DNA of 33,518 nucleotides, taken from positions 1 through 33,518 of the forward strand of contig MHXZ01000056.1 in the NCBI GenBank assembly GCA_001825665.1. The letters run 5' to 3'. Of the stretch, positions 4,110-11,956 are shown one piece after another (the stretch's first letter is position 1; each line of letters begins with the position of its first letter). The notes beneath the pieces are model-generated. The model worked only from the letters and a program-made list of their open reading frames with translations. It was not told the DNA's origin and made no database searches. The position numbers and the translations under genes are program-made. Source of the DNA: Planctomycetes bacterium GWF2_41_51. GTDB lineage: Bacteria; Planctomycetota; Phycisphaerae; Sedimentisphaerales; UBA12454.

Positions 4110-5285
4110 ATGCAAAACATGTCAAAAGTAGCGGTTTTGATAGAAGCATCTCGTTCTGCAGGACGAGGCTTGCTTAGCGGTATTGTTAAATACGTAAACG
4201 CCACCAATACCTGGGCCTGTTATCGCGAGCCGCCTTCATATACAAGGCTGGGAAGCAAAAAAACCCTATTGTCATGGATAAAAGGCCTCAATATCGACGG
4301 CATTATCGCCCACGACCATTACGCAAAAGAAATTGAAAGTCTGATAAATAACAAAACTCCTATGGTTATTGCCAGTGTTGATACCCGAAAATATCCTTTT
4401 CTGCCTACTTTTTCGGACGATGGAATTTCCACCGGCCAAATGGCTGCAAAGCATCTGCTCGAAAGAGGAATGAGAAATTTTGCTTATTATGGCTTGCGCA
4501 AGCAGGACACTTTCCGTGACAGGGGAAGAAGTTTCAAAGACCAAATCAAAAAGGTAGGTTACAAAACTTACTTCTATGAGTCCAAACGTTCTTTGGGAAA
4601 AAGTTCATGGGAAAATGAGCTGACAAGAATCGCAAATTGGCTTATTTCGCTTCCAAAACCTCTTGGAATCATGACCTATGCAGACGATTACAGTCAGCAA
4701 ATTGTTGAAGCCTGCAAAGTTGCCAAACTAAAAATACCAGACGATGTTGCAGTTATCGGAGTTGACAATGACCATTTGATTTGTAATTTGTCTAATCCGC
4801 CCCTTTCAAGCGTCGCTTTAAAATATGAACGCGCAGGTTATGAAATAGCGAAACTGCTCGACAGATTAATCAATGGCGAACCTATGCAGGGACAGAAAAT
4901 TATCATTGAACCAACTCATATTGTTACAAGACAGTCCACTAATACTTTGTACCTCGACGATATCGAAGTTCTCCAGTCTGTCAGATATATACATCAGAAC
5001 GCAAACAGACTTTTACAGGTCGAAGATGTTGTCAGAAATTCCCGTTTATCGCGAAGAGCGCTTCAGCAGAGATTTAATAAAATTCTCGGCCATTCTATTT
5101 TTTACGAAATTCAGCAGCGCCATGCCGACCAAATTGCAAAAATGCTTATAGAAACTAACCTCCCGATTTCCAAAATTGCCTTAAATTTAGGCCATAGCGG
5201 TATTGAACACATATCGAGATATTTTAGATTGGTAAAAGCATGCAGCCCGACCGATTATAGAAAAAAATATGGTATGTACCGTTGA
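4110..5285 (+). CDS. XylR-type transcriptional regulator, AraC family
   Basis: The 391-residue protein has the two-part layout of the XylR family: an N-terminal periplasmic-binding-like (LacI-like) ligand domain (about 6-275, starting KVAVLIEASRSAGRGLLSGI and including VAVIGVDNDHLICNLSNPPLSSVALKYE... ) and a C-terminal AraC-type double helix-turn-helix (about 285-388) with RLLQVEDVVRNSRLSRRALQ and ISKIALNLGHSGIEHISRYF. These proteins bind a sugar and activate sugar-catabolism operons. It is the only well-supported plus-strand protein gene, diverges from the LamG cluster and converges with the kinase operon at 5323-8585, either of which could be its target. AAGGA seven nucleotides before the first ATG supports the start. 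The inducing sugar is not readable. Confidence 0.9.
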   Translation: MQNMSKVAVLIEASRSAGRGLLSGIVKYVNATNTWACYREPPSYTRLGSKKTLLSWIKGLNIDGIIAHDHYAKEIESLINNKTPMVIASVDTRKYPFLPTFSDDGISTGQMAAKHLLERGMRNFAYYGLRKQDTFRDRGRSFKDQIKKVGYKTYFYESKRSLGKSSWENELTRIANWLISLPKPLGIMTYADDYSQQIVEACKVAKLKIPDDVAVIGVDNDHLICNLSNPPLSSVALKYERAGYEIAKLLDRLINGEPMQGQKIIIEPTHIVTRQSTNTLYLDDIEVLQSVRYIHQNANRLLQVEDVVRNSRLSRRALQQRFNKILGHSIFYEIQQRHADQIAKMLIETNLPISKIALNLGHSGIEHISRYFRLVKACSPTDYRKKYGMYR

Positions 5286-5322: not shown

Positions 5323-6501
5323 TTAATGAGTCAGTTCTCGTTCCGTGAATTCAATTAACTTTGATTTATATTTGCTATCACCGTTCTGCCACAGTTTCAC
5401 AAGAATATTTTTAAAATCTTTCTGAATATTTAATTTTTCTTGTTCTGCAAAGTAAAACACCCCTGCAACTGCCCCTTTCGTCATATTAATCGGCACTATG
5501 CCTTGCTCAAGAGCCAATTGCATTGTTCCAAATATCCGATCATTTATACCAAGTTTACGCTCTGGATCTCTTGCCGCACGTTCAATCGTATCATCCAGAT
5601 ATGCATTAGTCATTCTCTTAAGCAAATCCTCCGCATAAGCGCTAAAACCTTTTTCCGTAAATAATTCTTCATTAAGATGAGCGTATTTCTTAATCAGCGC
5701 AGCACCAGATTCTTTTATGAAGGCATCCATGGCTATCTGCATAATTTCTTTATCATTTTTCAATTCAGCCATTTTCTTGTAACCTTTTTGCGTACCTAAA
5801 TACGCTAAAAGAGCATGAATCGCATTATGGCCGTAAAGCTTTGCTTCTTCAAAAGGCAGCAAATCTTCTTTTTCAATAAAAACTTCTATACCGGGTTTAA
5901 AATCAGCAAGATGGCATTTCGTTACGAGAATTTTATTAAACTCCTCAACCAGGAATGCTCTATCGAACCCAGTTGCAATAGATTTTAAATTCTTGGTTGT
6001 AATCTCTTCTTTGTTTACAACAACCTGACTCATTTTGCCTATTACTGTATTTAAAAACTGTACATTTTTGAATGAACCGATCTTTTGTTCAAGAATTTCA
6101 GCGGCATGATTATTATTTTCTGCGGTGTAAACTAATACGTTATTCGTTTGGCTCAATCCTTCTTTAATCAATTGAGCAACGCCTTTATCGTAAAAATTCA
6201 CCGAAGGCAACGATGTACAAATTTCTGTTGATTGCGACAAGGCTTTTATAATCTCTTTGCGGTCTTTGGCATTTGATGGATTATAAATTTCGACACCTTC
6301 AATTTTAAATGCCTCTATACCCTCAAATGTTGCAACATTTATATAATAACAGCCGTTGTTGGCTCGAACAGCATCGACCAACTTCTGGTCAACTTCTGAA
6401 ATAACAATCCGTGAAAAATTTCCGCTCTTATACGCTTCATTGACAAACAAACCTGCCTGTATCGGGCCGAAACCGAAACCTATAAATATATGATTTTTCA
6501 T
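5323..6501 (-). CDS. Mannitol-dehydrogenase-like polyol/sugar oxidoreductase
   Basis: The 392-residue protein starts with a Rossmann dinucleotide motif (IFIGFGFGPIQAGLF), followed by strand-ending acidic residues (VISEVD) as in NAD-binding folds. The middle has AENNNHAAEIL, and the C-terminal half has YGHNAIHALLAYLGTQKGYK, resembling the Asn/His catalytic and substrate region of the mannitol dehydrogenase / mannitol-1-phosphate 5-dehydrogenase superfamily. Likely reaction: NAD(P)-linked interconversion of a polyol or sugar acid and a ketose or keto acid. Its ATG overlaps the TGA of the kinase gene (ATGA at 6498-6501), implying translational coupling; it is the last gene of the operon. A decayed copy of residues about 145-243 lies at 9615-9912. 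Divergence from typical MtlD is large, so substrate is open. Confidence 0.65.
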   Translation of the reverse strand: MKNHIFIGFGFGPIQAGLFVNEAYKSGNFSRIVISEVDQKLVDAVRANNGCYYINVATFEGIEAFKIEGVEIYNPSNAKDRKEIIKALSQSTEICTSLPSVNFYDKGVAQLIKEGLSQTNNVLVYTAENNNHAAEILEQKIGSFKNVQFLNTVIGKMSQVVVNKEEITTKNLKSIATGFDRAFLVEEFNKILVTKCHLADFKPGIEVFIEKEDLLPFEEAKLYGHNAIHALLAYLGTQKGYKKMAELKNDKEIMQIAMDAFIKESGAALIKKYAHLNEELFTEKGFSAYAEDLLKRMTNAYLDDTIERAARDPERKLGINDRIFGTMQLALEQGIVPINMTKGAVAGVFYFAEQEKLNIQKDFKNILVKLWQNGDSKYKSKLIEFTERELTH

Positions 6502-7631
6502 TTATTTGTCATTTCCAACATCTTGTTATAACTTTCTATGCTGCCATACCTGTCGTTTAATGGTGCTTTTATATAAAGAGATGCAAATAAATTGCCCATT
6601 TGAATTGCTTCTTCAATATCAATCTTATCATTTTTAAATTTGTCTATATTTTTTGAAATATATGTTACAACTCCGGCTCTGAACGAATCACCGGCACCAA
6701 CCAAATCTTTGACACCCCCACCCATAAATCGGGATGTTATTTTCTTCGGGCCTGTAATATTTCTCTTTGCATCTTTATATATCACGTAAGCGCCATCCTT
6801 AACCGTTACGCCGAATATTTTAAAATTACTGAACTCTTTAGAAAGAAATTCCAGAAAATTAATAATAAAATCCTGCTGGGCAATATTTTCCCCAAACGTA
6901 TTGGCAATCATTCTTGCCTCATCATAAGATGTGAAGAATATATCCAGTTCAGGCAATAATGGTTTGAGTAATTTATATTCAGGAACGGCTGCTTTTTCTT
7001 CTATCAATTTTTGAGGATTGCCGGTAAGCGTATGGCTGTCTATGATAGTTACGATTCCTTTTTGTCTGCACCACTTTATGAAATTAGCAAGGTCTTTGCC
7101 CCCATTTGCATCGCCTCGGTCTGATAGACCGGAATACATATAGAAAACTATGTTAGGCGAGAGCTTCTCTATAGACTTTTTAAAATATTCATAATCAAAA
7201 TCATTGTTGGCGTTTGGAAAGAATGCCAGACCGCCTCGTTCGTGATTTACTTTTTCATAAATAAATGTCGTTCCGGTCGGAAGATTTGGATGAATAAAAG
7301 TTTGAGACATATCGACATTATATTTTGTCATCATATCATAGAAGAATCGGCCTTGAGCATCCAAACCATCGAAATCACCTTTACCAAGATTAACGCCAAC
7401 AGCAACTTTCAAACCCGCTTTAGCAACTAATGGTGCGGTATTGCCAGGCCCGCCGGCTGTTACCATACCAGCATCTGCCCACTGCTTATACTGCTTTTGA
7501 GTATATGCAGGCATATCAGCCGTTTTACATCTTGCCAAACCGCCGGGCCCGGCAAGCTTTTCCGTAAATGAAAATTCATCACTGCGAAAATCAGCAACCG
7601 CTGTGTTTAAAATTAAAACATCCATTGACAT
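6498..7631 (-). CDS. PfkB-family sugar kinase
   Basis: The 377-residue protein carries the PfkB C-terminal signature DLVGAGDSFRAGVVTYI, in which the Asp of GAGDS is the catalytic base, and an N-terminal substrate-side motif GGPGNTAPLVAKAGLKVAVG. The family phosphorylates sugars or nucleosides with ATP in the cytoplasm. It is longer than the usual roughly 300-330 residues, mainly because about 35 residues (AGPGGLARCKTADMPAYTQK region) precede the Gly-Gly motif. AAAGGA lies ahead of the ATG at 7631. It follows the unknown gene at 7638-8585 by 6 nt and overlaps the dehydrogenase by 4 nt, so kinase and oxidoreductase probably act in one sugar pathway. A remnant of its first about 51 codons lies at 9913-10064. 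Confidence 0.85.
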   Translation of the reverse strand: MSMDVLILNTAVADFRSDEFSFTEKLAGPGGLARCKTADMPAYTQKQYKQWADAGMVTAGGPGNTAPLVAKAGLKVAVGVNLGKGDFDGLDAQGRFFYDMMTKYNVDMSQTFIHPNLPTGTTFIYEKVNHERGGLAFFPNANNDFDYEYFKKSIEKLSPNIVFYMYSGLSDRGDANGGKDLANFIKWCRQKGIVTIIDSHTLTGNPQKLIEEKAAVPEYKLLKPLLPELDIFFTSYDEARMIANTFGENIAQQDFIINFLEFLSKEFSNFKIFGVTVKDGAYVIYKDAKRNITGPKKITSRFMGGGVKDLVGAGDSFRAGVVTYISKNIDKFKNDKIDIEEAIQMGNLFASLYIKAPLNDRYGSIESYNKMLEMTNK

Positions 7632-7637
7632 ATATCG

Positions 7638-8585
7638 TTATCCTTTAAATAATCCTTCAAGCAGAGGCTTTCTCATAATTTTATCACCTCTATAAAACCA
7701 ATCCGTTGTCATATCAGAACTGCCTTTGGGTGGAATAAGTCCTTTCGAATATTTGCAATTAACAGGCGGCTTTGCTATAACCAAATCGAGCGGTATCGCT
7801 GAATTCTCATTTATTACGGCAAATTCTTCATTATCAGAATGAATATTGCACCAACCGTGTGCGCAAGGAGAAAAGTCTGTAGTCGCAACATACAGCTTTT
7901 CACCCTTATTAAGAACAACCGGCACAAGACCATCAAATTCGTCAGATATTTCATTTGGAATTTTAAATTCATCAACATGTTTTTCGCCAAGTTGACGAGC
8001 CTTTTTAAGATAAGGTCTGGATTTATTGACCGGATGCTCAAAACATCTTGAAGAAATAAAAACACAAGCTTTAGATTTTTTAAAATCACTAAGCATTGTA
8101 AAATCTTCAAATTTTGCCGGTATCATATCAATATAGCCTTTTTCCTGCCAAAGGCTCTGAAACGCTCTGGCCGAATCTGCAATCATTACATACGTCCAAT
8201 TTTTATTCCAGGTATCATTTGGCGGCTGGAAACCATTTAAAACTTTTTTGGCATCAATAGTTCCTGATGGCACATTATTATTACCGGAATATATCTGATT
8301 ATCAAATACAAAAACATTATTATGCCCATGCTGGGGAAGTAGCGGAGTAACTAGTCCTTTGTTGCAAACAGCATCATTTATTCCAACATAAATCGCAAGA
8401 ACAGTTTCCTTAACATAAGGAATCAAATGTGCCAGCTCTAATGAATTTATGTCTTCATCAGGAGAAAAATATTGGCAATATTGTTTCATTTGCTGATATG
8501 ATCTTTCCAGGAAAGTCAAATATTCTTGCGGATTTGTATCAGATCCGGCAGGTACATTTATTTTTCGTTTTAATTGATGTTCCAT
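7638..8585 (-). CDS. Unrecognised cytoplasmic protein leading the kinase-dehydrogenase operon
   Basis: I do not recognise this 315-residue protein. It has no signal peptide or membrane segment. Visible features are a Lys-rich start, HGHNNVFVFDNQIY near residues 86-99, a central segment with CVFISSRCFEHPVNKSRP, a Cys/His cluster CAHGWCNIHSDNEEF (about 243-257) that could bind metal, and a Pro/Lys-rich ending. The Cys/His pattern with neighbouring acidic residues could suit a metal-dependent enzyme such as a cupin-like isomerase, but that is speculation. It is only 6 nt upstream of the kinase gene, so it very likely acts in the same sugar pathway. The Shine-Dalgarno is weak (GGA about 10 nt before ATG). 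Confidence 0.75.
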   Translation of the reverse strand: MEHQLKRKINVPAGSDTNPQEYLTFLERSYQQMKQYCQYFSPDEDINSLELAHLIPYVKETVLAIYVGINDAVCNKGLVTPLLPQHGHNNVFVFDNQIYSGNNNVPSGTIDAKKVLNGFQPPNDTWNKNWTYVMIADSARAFQSLWQEKGYIDMIPAKFEDFTMLSDFKKSKACVFISSRCFEHPVNKSRPYLKKARQLGEKHVDEFKIPNEISDEFDGLVPVVLNKGEKLYVATTDFSPCAHGWCNIHSDNEEFAVINENSAIPLDLVIAKPPVNCKYSKGLIPPKGSSDMTTDWFYRGDKIMRKPLLEGLFKG

Positions 8586-9049: not shown

Positions 9050-9090
9050 GCGCCCGTAGCTCAGCTGGATAGAGCAACGGATTTCTATCC
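9050..9090 (+). pseudogene. 5' half of a tRNA-Arg(TCT) gene, broken in the anticodon arm
   Basis: The sequence gives a 7-nt acceptor strand GCGCCCG (9050-9056), TA, a D arm with stem GCTC/GAGC and loop AGCTGGATA, an anticodon stem strand ACGGA and loop TTTCTA holding the anticodon TCT (9084-9086). After that the match to tRNA-Arg stops: only TCC of the 3' anticodon stem follows, one loop base is missing, and no variable region, T arm or 3' acceptor strand is found downstream in the window. The break lies in the anticodon loop, a known crossover position for some tyrosine recombinases. It cannot make a functional tRNA. Confidence 0.8.
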
Positions 9091-9477: not shown

Positions 9478-9614
9478 AAAGTTTATAGAAAGGGCTCGAT
9501 ACAATATACCGAAATCCAATTGCTTACAGTGGGATGGAAACAATTTTTCTTGCCATCCAGCAAACAAATAATGCGAGGAAAACTAATACCCATTATAAAA
9601 AAACAGCCCCACAG

Positions 9615-10064
9615 TTTTTTTGTACCTTTTTGTGCTCCCAAATACGCTAAAAGAGCATGTATCGCATTATGACCATAAAGTTTTGCTTCTTCAAATAGCA
9701 GCAAATCTTCTTTTTCGGTGAAAACATTTATTCCCGGTTTAAAATCAGGAAGATGGCATGTTGTTACTATAATTTTATTAAATTCTTCAACCAGAAACGC
9801 CCTGTCAATGCCGGGTACTATGGTTTTTAAACCTTTTTGTTTGATTTCTTCTCCATCAGTTACAACCTGACTCATCTATCGACTACTGTATTAAAAAACT
9901 GGACATTCTTATCCATAGTTTGTATAATTTTTGCGTATAGGATGGCATATCAATTGTTTGACATCTCGCAAGGCCGCCTTGGCCTGCAAGTTTCTCTGTG
10001 AATCTGAATTCACCCTGCTGAAATCTGCCACTGCTGTATTTAAAATTAAAACATCTATATTCAT
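9615..10064 (-). pseudogene. Collapsed second copy of the kinase-dehydrogenase gene pair
   Basis: The upper part (9913-10064) matches codons 1 to about 51 of the PfkB kinase at 6498-7631: it starts MNIDVLILNTAVADF, then needs a frame change to continue EFRFTEKLAGQGGLARCQT and ends YKLW. The lower part (9615-9912) matches residues about 145-243 of the dehydrogenase at 5323-6501, with a one-base deletion just before MSQVV; across MSQVV to AQKG about 66 of 83 residues agree by eye. The rest of the kinase and the dehydrogenase N-terminus are missing, so one internal deletion joined the two genes. Below 9615 homology stops. An open stretch remains at 9483-9875 but lacks both ends of the enzyme. 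The pseudogene ATG directly abuts the stop of the gene at 10065. Confidence 0.88.
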
Positions 10065-10885: not shown

Positions 10886-11956
10886 TTATGTATTTCTTTT
10901 CAGCCAATCGAGCAATTCAATTCCTTGTTGCTTATTGTCTGCATAAACTTCGTACACCAGCAACTCCGGCTTATAATTACAATTCTGATGAACATATTTT
11001 ACTTCATCAGGGGAAGCATAAATAATTGTCAATTTTCCCGCTGATTGTATCTTATTTATAATTTCCTGCCACAGAAAATTCGGTTTCCTTCCTGCTCCCG
11101 GAAGCCATTGCACAAATTTAATTTTTTTTACAGCTAAAATATCGTCCAGAAAGGGCAGCGCCCCCGGCCCATCGAGATGAAATGCAGCATCATCAAGAAA
11201 TGCCGCTTCTTCTTCAATCGCAGGCAAAACAAATCTGCGGAACATCTCGGGAGTCACAAGGCTTATGAAATCAGTCTGAATATAATCTGTTTTACCTCGA
11301 CTGTAAAGATGCATACCGGAATTGCTTCCAATCTTTGCTTTATCTCCAAATTGCCATAATTCATTATATATCTTCTTATAAACAGGACGCACCTGCTTCA
11401 TTAATTCATCCACAATTTCAGGCTTGTCAATCAAATCATACAAAAGCCTCTCCGCCCCGCGCATAGCTTCGAGGCAATCGATATTCGAATGCAGATCGAT
11501 ATTGAACAACAGGCATTTATCTTTACAGAATTTTTCGGCAGCTTTATGAAATTCGAGCATTCGCCGCCAAACCGGATTTTTCTCATCGAGCTTTAAAGGC
11601 ATAAAATCCTTCCACTCGTTTACGATTTTTTCCGTCCAGCTTGTATCACGACTTTCCGGATTGATTGTCAAAGGCATTCCTAAAAATGCCGTCATCTGAT
11701 CTGGCCCGAATCCCGGCCGAAAACCGGGAATCGCCTCTCCTAAAAATTCTATACTTTCCAGGCTTTTTTGCGATGCGGAAAAACTTACGCTAAAATCATC
11801 TTCAACTCCCTGAAGAGTCATCGAATAATGTTTCAAATCTTTTTTAGCGTAAATGATAGTGCATGGGCGATCTATGATTTCCTTATTCCAGAAAGCATCC
11901 CAATATTTTTGTGCCCGAGAAAAATCAGGTTTATATTTTAATTTCAATTCTGACAA
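10886..11956 (-). CDS. URO-D-like / corrinoid methyltransferase-family protein
   Basis: The 356-residue protein looks like the uroporphyrinogen decarboxylase superfamily in its methyltransferase-related branch (MtaA/CmuA-like). Supporting features are the N-terminal aromatic start (YWDAFWNKEIIDRP), LFNIDLHSNIDCLEAMRG, the helix ERLLYDLIDKPEIVDELMKQV, LVTPEMFRRFVLP, and the C-terminal strand FHLDGPGALPFLDDIL with FVQWLPGAG. Family members move methyl groups between corrinoid proteins and thiols or decarboxylate porphyrins; many planctomycetal members near sugar genes are uncharacterised. The start is a TTG with GGAGG 8 nt upstream; no ATG fits. Located 68 nt downstream of the beta-helix gene. 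An MTTB-type protein at 31961-33388 is in the same window, but no corrinoid protein is seen. Confidence 0.75.
   Translation of the reverse strand: MSELKLKYKPDFSRAQKYWDAFWNKEIIDRPCTIIYAKKDLKHYSMTLQGVEDDFSVSFSASQKSLESIEFLGEAIPGFRPGFGPDQMTAFLGMPLTINPESRDTSWTEKIVNEWKDFMPLKLDEKNPVWRRMLEFHKAAEKFCKDKCLLFNIDLHSNIDCLEAMRGAERLLYDLIDKPEIVDELMKQVRPVYKKIYNELWQFGDKAKIGSNSGMHLYSRGKTDYIQTDFISLVTPEMFRRFVLPAIEEEAAFLDDAAFHLDGPGALPFLDDILAVKKIKFVQWLPGAGRKPNFLWQEIINKIQSAGKLTIIYASPDEVKYVHQNCNYKPELLVYEVYADNKQQGIELLDWLKRNT

Follow-up and report, generated by a model that had tools for sequence, protein, structure and literature searches.

The window analysed here is a stretch of 33,518 nt from Planctomycetes bacterium GWF2_41_51 (contig MHXZ01000056.1). 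An ATG-started ORF runs from 8585 to 7638 on its minus strand and encodes a 315-residue protein, referred to here as X. A gap of 6 nt (7632-7637) separates it from a PfkB-family kinase gene, which in turn overlaps an MtlD-like gene by 4 nt, all as a sequence-only reading of this DNA had described. The features of the locus are as follows.

7638..8585, minus strand: gene X, 315-aa predicted cupin aldose-ketose isomerase (ORF with ATG start, family of 28, AlphaFold2 model)
6498..7631, minus strand: PfkB-family sugar kinase of group a, 377 aa (PF00294, E 4e-16; model with pLDDT 70.6 and a ribokinase-type fold, Z ~25)
5323..6501, minus strand: MtlD-like polyol dehydrogenase, 392 aa (PF08125, E 1.6e-21)
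4110..5285, plus strand, convergent: sugar-binding regulator with Peripla_BP_3 and AraC-type HTH_18 domains and a weak N-terminal XylR match (Pfam)
9612..9875, minus strand: fragment of a decayed second MtlD copy (residues 157-244, 78% identical; sequence comparison)
9913..10064, minus strand: N-terminal fragments of a decayed second PfkB copy (residues 1-15 and 15-51, 87% and 73% identical; sequence comparison)

The MtlD-like enzyme carries the mannitol dehydrogenase C-terminal domain (PF08125). Its top NCBIfam match was mannitol-1-phosphate 5-dehydrogenase (E 2.3e-31, under the NCBIfam cut-off), with a far weaker match to fructuronate reductase (E 4e-7), and it matched PDB 3h2z at E 1.5e-18. 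The substrate of the kinase could not be separated by structure: ribokinase, adenosine kinase and fructokinase ranked together against its model, at Z 23.3-25.3. This kinase had no match to PF25270 (ketohexokinase) at E<=1. The convergent gene is possibly the regulator of the operon.

Upstream of the intact operon, the PfkB and MtlD remnants look like what is left of an older copy that decayed or was displaced. Contig C135 of the same genome has a complete tRNA-Arg(TCT) gene, whose 5' part recurs without a mismatch in 38 bases of the window (9050-9087); this tRNA piece beside decayed genes suggests an old integration site. The same genome carries a second operon on contig C70. Downstream of it (L054, 2278-2382, minus strand) is a 35-residue fragment, 86% identical to residues 241-275 of X, which is, as judged by sequence, another decayed copy of X. 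A 356-aa ORF at 10886-11956 of the window had no Pfam match at E<=1; blastp gave no support (E 0.78) for its suspected kinship with the URO-D protein encoded by the C70 copy's surroundings.

X had no match at E<=1 in Pfam-A, NCBIfam or the PDB chain sequences, in agreement with the sequence-only reading, which had recognised no family. It had no match in a plasmid collection either, and a 28-row profile of the family gave nothing meaningful against the PDB sequences. Neither X nor any of the 28 members matched PF07385, the D-lyxose isomerase domain, at E<=1; the PF07385 HMM found one other strong match in the genome of the window, at C20:31365-32033. As X has no such match, it is called a separate family, which by analogy may work like a D-lyxose/D-mannose isomerase. 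Among the matches listed in searches of open-licence papers, no description of the family was found.

The gene is real, as the 27 other members are 55-82% identical to X and their aligned stretches contain no stops; many positions are invariant. A second full copy, 71% identical, lies on contig C70, and another genome of the same order holds a member at 71%. The other 25 loci came from a scan of one genome per species (84,980 species) with exact peptide patterns from X, which remoter members could escape. X was present in 2 of 392 Planctomycetota genomes in a drawn sample (single-sequence search; the window's own genome included) and in 1 of 395 Bacteroidota genomes (profile search), which was the centre genome itself; no distant relatives were found in either sample. 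By record label, 8/28 members are Bacteroidota and most others Planctomycetota; Kiritimatiellota, Lentisphaerota, Armatimonadota and Myxococcota have one member each, and one member has no phylum label, all labels being uncertain since the members are almost all from metagenome bins. Two members are incomplete: L022 is truncated by a contig end, and in L025 the reading frame changes near residue 45, after which point its sequence was used. L001, which is the window itself, and L003, a 36-residue fragment of X, were left out of the 28.

Next, the neighbours of X were compared across the loci. PfkB is the direct same-strand neighbour of X, 1-19 nt away, in 10 of the 28 (the window, L002, L004, L005, L008, L013, L015, L018, L022 and L026), and in L011 it lies upstream on the same strand, beyond two porters. 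PfkB was thus found within 6 kb of X at 11/28 loci versus 0.76 expected by chance, a value derived from 192 PF00294 matches in the 25 genomes examined; the Poisson figures assume independence between loci, which does not hold for relatives. A xylulokinase-like FGGY kinase lies 17 nt upstream of X in L017, the sole directly adjoining FGGY. At 16 loci, neither a sugar kinase adjoining X nor a PfkB anywhere in the available DNA was recognised, with an FGGY farther along in L019. Contigs that end early lower all these neighbour counts, and L007 and L011 were counted, from their record name, as the same genome as L006. MtlD is near X at six loci (the window, L002, L004, L005, L016 and L026). The earlier proposal had asked for conserved linkage to both enzymes in relatives; the kinase part held in that it is above chance, yet at only 11 loci, and the dehydrogenase proved less general.

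The X-linked kinases fall into three groups, and PfkB groups a and b are 20-22% identical to each other. On the tree of X, groups a and b need four and three changes, respectively (at least three and two on well-supported branches), with losses possible; group b was no more clustered than shuffled labels and group a barely so. Because several changes are needed, the X-PfkB linkage seems not to be a single arrangement fixed once and inherited since.

The order X-PfkB-DUF4432-MtlD is found in the second copy of the window's genome, in the genome of the same order and in L005, where DUF4432 was checked with Pfam. The DUF4432 protein, which is perhaps a mutarotase for the same sugar, recurs in the X operons of L005 (2867-3937), L002/L054, L004/L055, L008 and L015. 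In all eight Bacteroidota loci, X adjoins a sugar porter (7/8), GalM (5/8) or both, as assigned by BLAST cluster and checked with Pfam and NCBIfam on L024 (Proteiniphilum acetatigenes). A GH38 alpha-mannosidase is near X in L002 (the second copy in the window's genome, where it lies directly upstream), L007 and L013. It was within 6 kb at no fewer than three loci (at least 3 versus 0.37 expected, P 0.007), by a test chosen after GH38 had been seen there. GH92 is near X at L014. Some loci have unlike neighbours, such as Memo (L012) and a radical SAM protein (L019), and L009 has an E1 dehydrogenase and a fucose-isomerase-like protein. Neighbours outside the hmmscanned set were assigned by BLAST cluster only or left unassigned, and unrecognised kinases or mannosidases may remain among them.

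An AlphaFold2 model of X, built on the family alignment, had a pLDDT of 91.4 and a pTM of 0.89. The first 11 rows of VIA-align were all D-lyxose/L-ribose isomerases or E. coli mannose/lyxose isomerases (Z 16.5-12.6), and the next row, at Z 9.2, began the other cupins. The Thermofilum D-lyxose isomerase, for which fructose-bound and mannose-bound structures exist, was at the top (7nzp), with Z 16.5, an rmsd of 2.7, 176 of 183 residues matched and 22% identity; 3ww2 (Z 15.7), 2y0o (Z 14.8) and 3mpb (Z 12.7) were among the other rows. Foldseek gave only two matches at E<=0.001, an L-ribose isomerase (E 2.8e-5) and the fructose-bound E. coli sugar isomerase (E 3.6e-4). Since the 176 matched residues are distributed over residues 13-309 of X, the model reads as the fold of the Thermofilum enzyme plus insertions; X is predicted to be a cupin barrel that holds almost the whole D-lyxose isomerase and about 120 inserted residues. 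Less than one Z unit lies between the top D-lyxose isomerase and the top L-ribose isomerase, and the fold therefore does not separate these two types. The predicted fold is a known one, that of the cupin D-lyxose/L-ribose isomerases.

The paper on the Thermofilum D-lyxose isomerase (TsLI) reports that K62, H75, H77, K86, E88, H143, E156 and D163 surround the sugar and Mn2+, that H75, H77, E88 and H143 are the metal ligands, that mutation of the D163 counterpart abolishes activity in the E. coli enzyme and that TsLI barely uses mannose, at <2% (PMC8378251). Counterparts in X were placed as follows.

8358..8360, minus strand: K76, counterpart of the sugar-contacting TsLI K62 (profile alignment; invariant, 28/28)
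8328..8330, minus strand: H86, predicted metal ligand, TsLI H75 (profile alignment; 28/28)
8322..8324, minus strand: H88, predicted metal ligand, TsLI H77 (profile alignment; 28/28)
8112..8114, minus strand: K158, predicted catalytic lysine, TsLI K86 (insert-free alignment; 28/28)
8106..8108, minus strand: E160, predicted metal ligand and base, TsLI E88 (register of K158; 28/28)
7857..7859, minus strand: H243, predicted metal ligand, TsLI H143, within CAHGWCNIHSD (27/28, Q in L027)
7806..7808, minus strand: E260, predicted catalytic glutamate, TsLI E156 (insert-free alignments; 28/28)

Six of the eight TsLI sugar- and metal-site residues thus have counterparts kept in all 28 members and a seventh, H243, in 27. 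The eighth, D163, corresponds by alignment to D267, which is D in 15, N in 12 and E in one, a variability that genuinely sets the family apart from the known enzymes. The four candidate metal ligands were assigned by sequence register only.

The alignments behind this map differ in reach. A profile-profile comparison of the X family with five planctomycete YdaE-type isomerases gave E 0.0024 (0.0086 in a repeat run) and an hhalign probability of 12%; it spans residues 27-91 only and places K76 on K62 and H86/H88 on H75/H77. Its score was 24.8, compared to 13.6-17.4 for three unrelated alignments. With the X inserts removed, the alignment extends through K158 (K86), E160 (E88), W245 and E260 (E156). 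W245 falls on the W after H143, so H243 sits one residue off H143. This alignment scored 23.4, and the maximum in 100 target column shuffles was 20.3. Removing one more insert carries it to D267 (D163) and D291/D295 (the DxFTD motif); this longer core scored 26.0 versus a maximum of 20.6 in 200 query shuffles and 12.9-16.7 for three unrelated alignments. Taken alone, the middle segment, which sets the K158/E160 register, and the C-terminal segment were not significant, as 21 and 26 of 100 shuffles, respectively, scored as high. A profile comparison with the E. coli-type isomerases (A3, PF07385 proper) was dropped, since its E of 0.22 was no better than that of unrelated alignments. The predicted metal and catalytic residues past H88 draw on the insert-free alignment and the fold.

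CAHGWCNIHSD, which had been singled out as a Cys/His-rich patch, comprises residues 241-251 of X. Among the 28 members, C241 and H243 are each kept in 27 and H249 in 26, and residue 246 is C in only six, so the patch is not conserved as such. What remains of it is H243, a likely metal ligand; the other predicted ligands, H86, H88 and E160, lie elsewhere in the chain.

A similar gene set was seen in other planctomycetes with a recognised isomerase. In L045, L046 and L048, a single open frame joins MtlD to a D-lyxose isomerase domain (PF07385), and the next gene encodes a ketohexokinase (PF25270):

298-1980 of L045, 1501-3198 of L046 and 1-1965 of L048: MtlD/YdaE-type isomerase fusions

MtlD was not seen at L044 or L047, and the fusion thus accounts for three of the five YdaE-type loci viewed (L044-L048). 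There were 18 PF07385 matches, and L049-L053 were left out of the locus inspection. The fusion may itself merit study. By analogy, the window would bring these three functions together, X being the isomerase. A study of Haloarcula shows a route from mannitol to fructose and then fructose 1-phosphate, via a mannitol dehydrogenase of another protein superfamily and a ketohexokinase (PMC11519228).

The sequence-only reading had proposed that X supplies a missing step, as an isomerase, epimerase, dehydratase or aldolase. An isomerase is favoured because the predicted structure, the active-site residues and the gene neighbourhood all indicate one, and by analogy with the known enzymes this class is well supported. 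X is very probably an aldose-ketose isomerase acting on a neutral sugar, mannose or a pentose. Our main reading, with a probability of roughly 0.62, is that X is a metal-dependent cupin isomerase of the D-lyxose/L-ribose type that mainly converts free D-mannose to D-fructose. We infer the substrate from context: the mannosidases, PfkB and the ketohexokinase parallel make mannose a reasonably probable main substrate. Context also suggests that the metal is probably Mn2+ or Co2+, and conversion of D-lyxose to D-xylulose is a likely side activity.

In a mechanism modelled on that of the Thermofilum and E. coli enzymes, H86, H88, E160 and H243 would hold the metal, a histidine would open the sugar ring and E160 would shift the proton via a cis-enediol, with K158 and E260 assisting. 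The adjoining PfkB kinase would then phosphorylate the ketose made by X, a step order suggested by context, and the MtlD-like enzyme would connect the ketose, or its phosphate, with the corresponding polyol.

Some of the evidence is against the main reading. The D163 counterpart varies, one member has Q at position 243, many loci show no recognised kinase beside X, and L009 has another sugar isomerase-like protein adjoining X. As for mannose, TsLI barely uses it, the known enzymes prefer lyxose, and the xylulokinase-like FGGY of L017 fits D-xylulose better than fructose. The same enzyme could, therefore, act mainly on a pentose, turning D-lyxose into D-xylulose or L-ribose into L-ribulose, with MtlD as a pentitol dehydrogenase. 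The structures nearest to X are indeed those of D-lyxose and L-ribose isomerases, whose top rows are within one Z unit of each other; the porter of L024 resembles XylE, although also GlcP, and the regulator near X weakly resembles XylR. We nevertheless consider a pentose as the main substrate unlikely, as alpha-mannosidases are near X at some loci, PfkB is found at 11 loci compared to one directly adjoining FGGY, and the parallel operons contain a ketohexokinase.

MtlD-family and PfkB proteins both belong to the classic uronate route. X might then be a cupin uronate isomerase, MtlD a fructuronate/tagaturonate-type reductase and PfkB a KDG kinase; the L018 kinase is weakly KDG-kinase-like (E 2e-5), and KduI is an isomerase with a cupin fold. 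This is the least probable explanation in our judgement. KduI (7e4s) aligned to the X model at Z 7.9 only, a value that ordinary cupins also reach in this comparison, and the MtlD-like enzyme is far nearer mannitol-1-phosphate dehydrogenase (E 2e-31) than fructuronate reductase. In addition, the scanned neighbours, which are part of all neighbours, included neither a mannonate or altronate dehydratase nor a KDPG aldolase. Another possible explanation is that X keeps the isomerase fold in a different role, as an epimerase, a lyase or dehydratase, or a sugar-sensing or carrier protein. Cupins are functionally diverse (PMC3765361), the D163 counterpart is not conserved, and the big family-specific insertions contain many invariant residues. 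Such a role is quite improbable, given that almost every member keeps all the proposed metal ligands along with the catalytic K and E, and that a recognised isomerase occurs in a like gene set elsewhere.

With X read as a mannose isomerase, we tentatively propose, at somewhat less than even odds, that it founds a family of cupin free-sugar isomerases unrecognised by sequence. In Planctomycetota, Bacteroidota, Kiritimatiellota and others, this family would bring the mannose that alpha-mannosidases release into metabolism as free fructose, bypassing mannose 6-phosphate; in other planctomycetes, the MtlD-fused YdaE-type isomerase would fill this role. For a planctomycete grown on xanthan, one paper notes that no mannokinase gene was found and proposes broad ROK glucokinases together with mannose-6-phosphate isomerase (PMC5673643). 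Our reading predicts that mannose enters via free fructose in glycan-degrading bacteria. It also offers a function that can be tested for a conserved family without a match in Pfam, NCBIfam or the PDB sequences. Isomerases of this type that are already known serve the production of D-mannose and L-ribose (PMC6746899).

Among known enzymes, X is most like the YdaE/Thermofilum D-lyxose isomerases (2y0o, 7nzo/7nzp/7nzq), with which it shares a cupin barrel over nearly the whole chain (Z 14.8-16.5) and, by alignment, putative equivalents of the metal ligands together with K62, K86 and E156. However, those enzymes have 175 and 204 aa compared to the 315 of X, are 20-23% identical to it and lack its inserts (after H88, at ~170-213 and at ~268-288); X, in turn, has no PF07385 match and varies at the D163 counterpart. 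The L-ribose isomerases (3ww2, 5avp, 4q0p) have the same fold, with Z 14.7-15.7 over 183-185 aligned residues, and provided the top match in Foldseek, but are only 16% identical to X. The E. coli O157 D-lyxose/mannose isomerase (3kmh/3mpb, PF07385 proper) resembles X in fold (Z 12.6-12.7), whereas its profile comparison with X was not significant. As for gene content, L045, L046 and L048 bring together a polyol dehydrogenase, an aldose isomerase and a PfkB-like ketose kinase as the window does, with the difference that theirs is a PF07385 isomerase fused to MtlD, and that their kinase matches PF25270.
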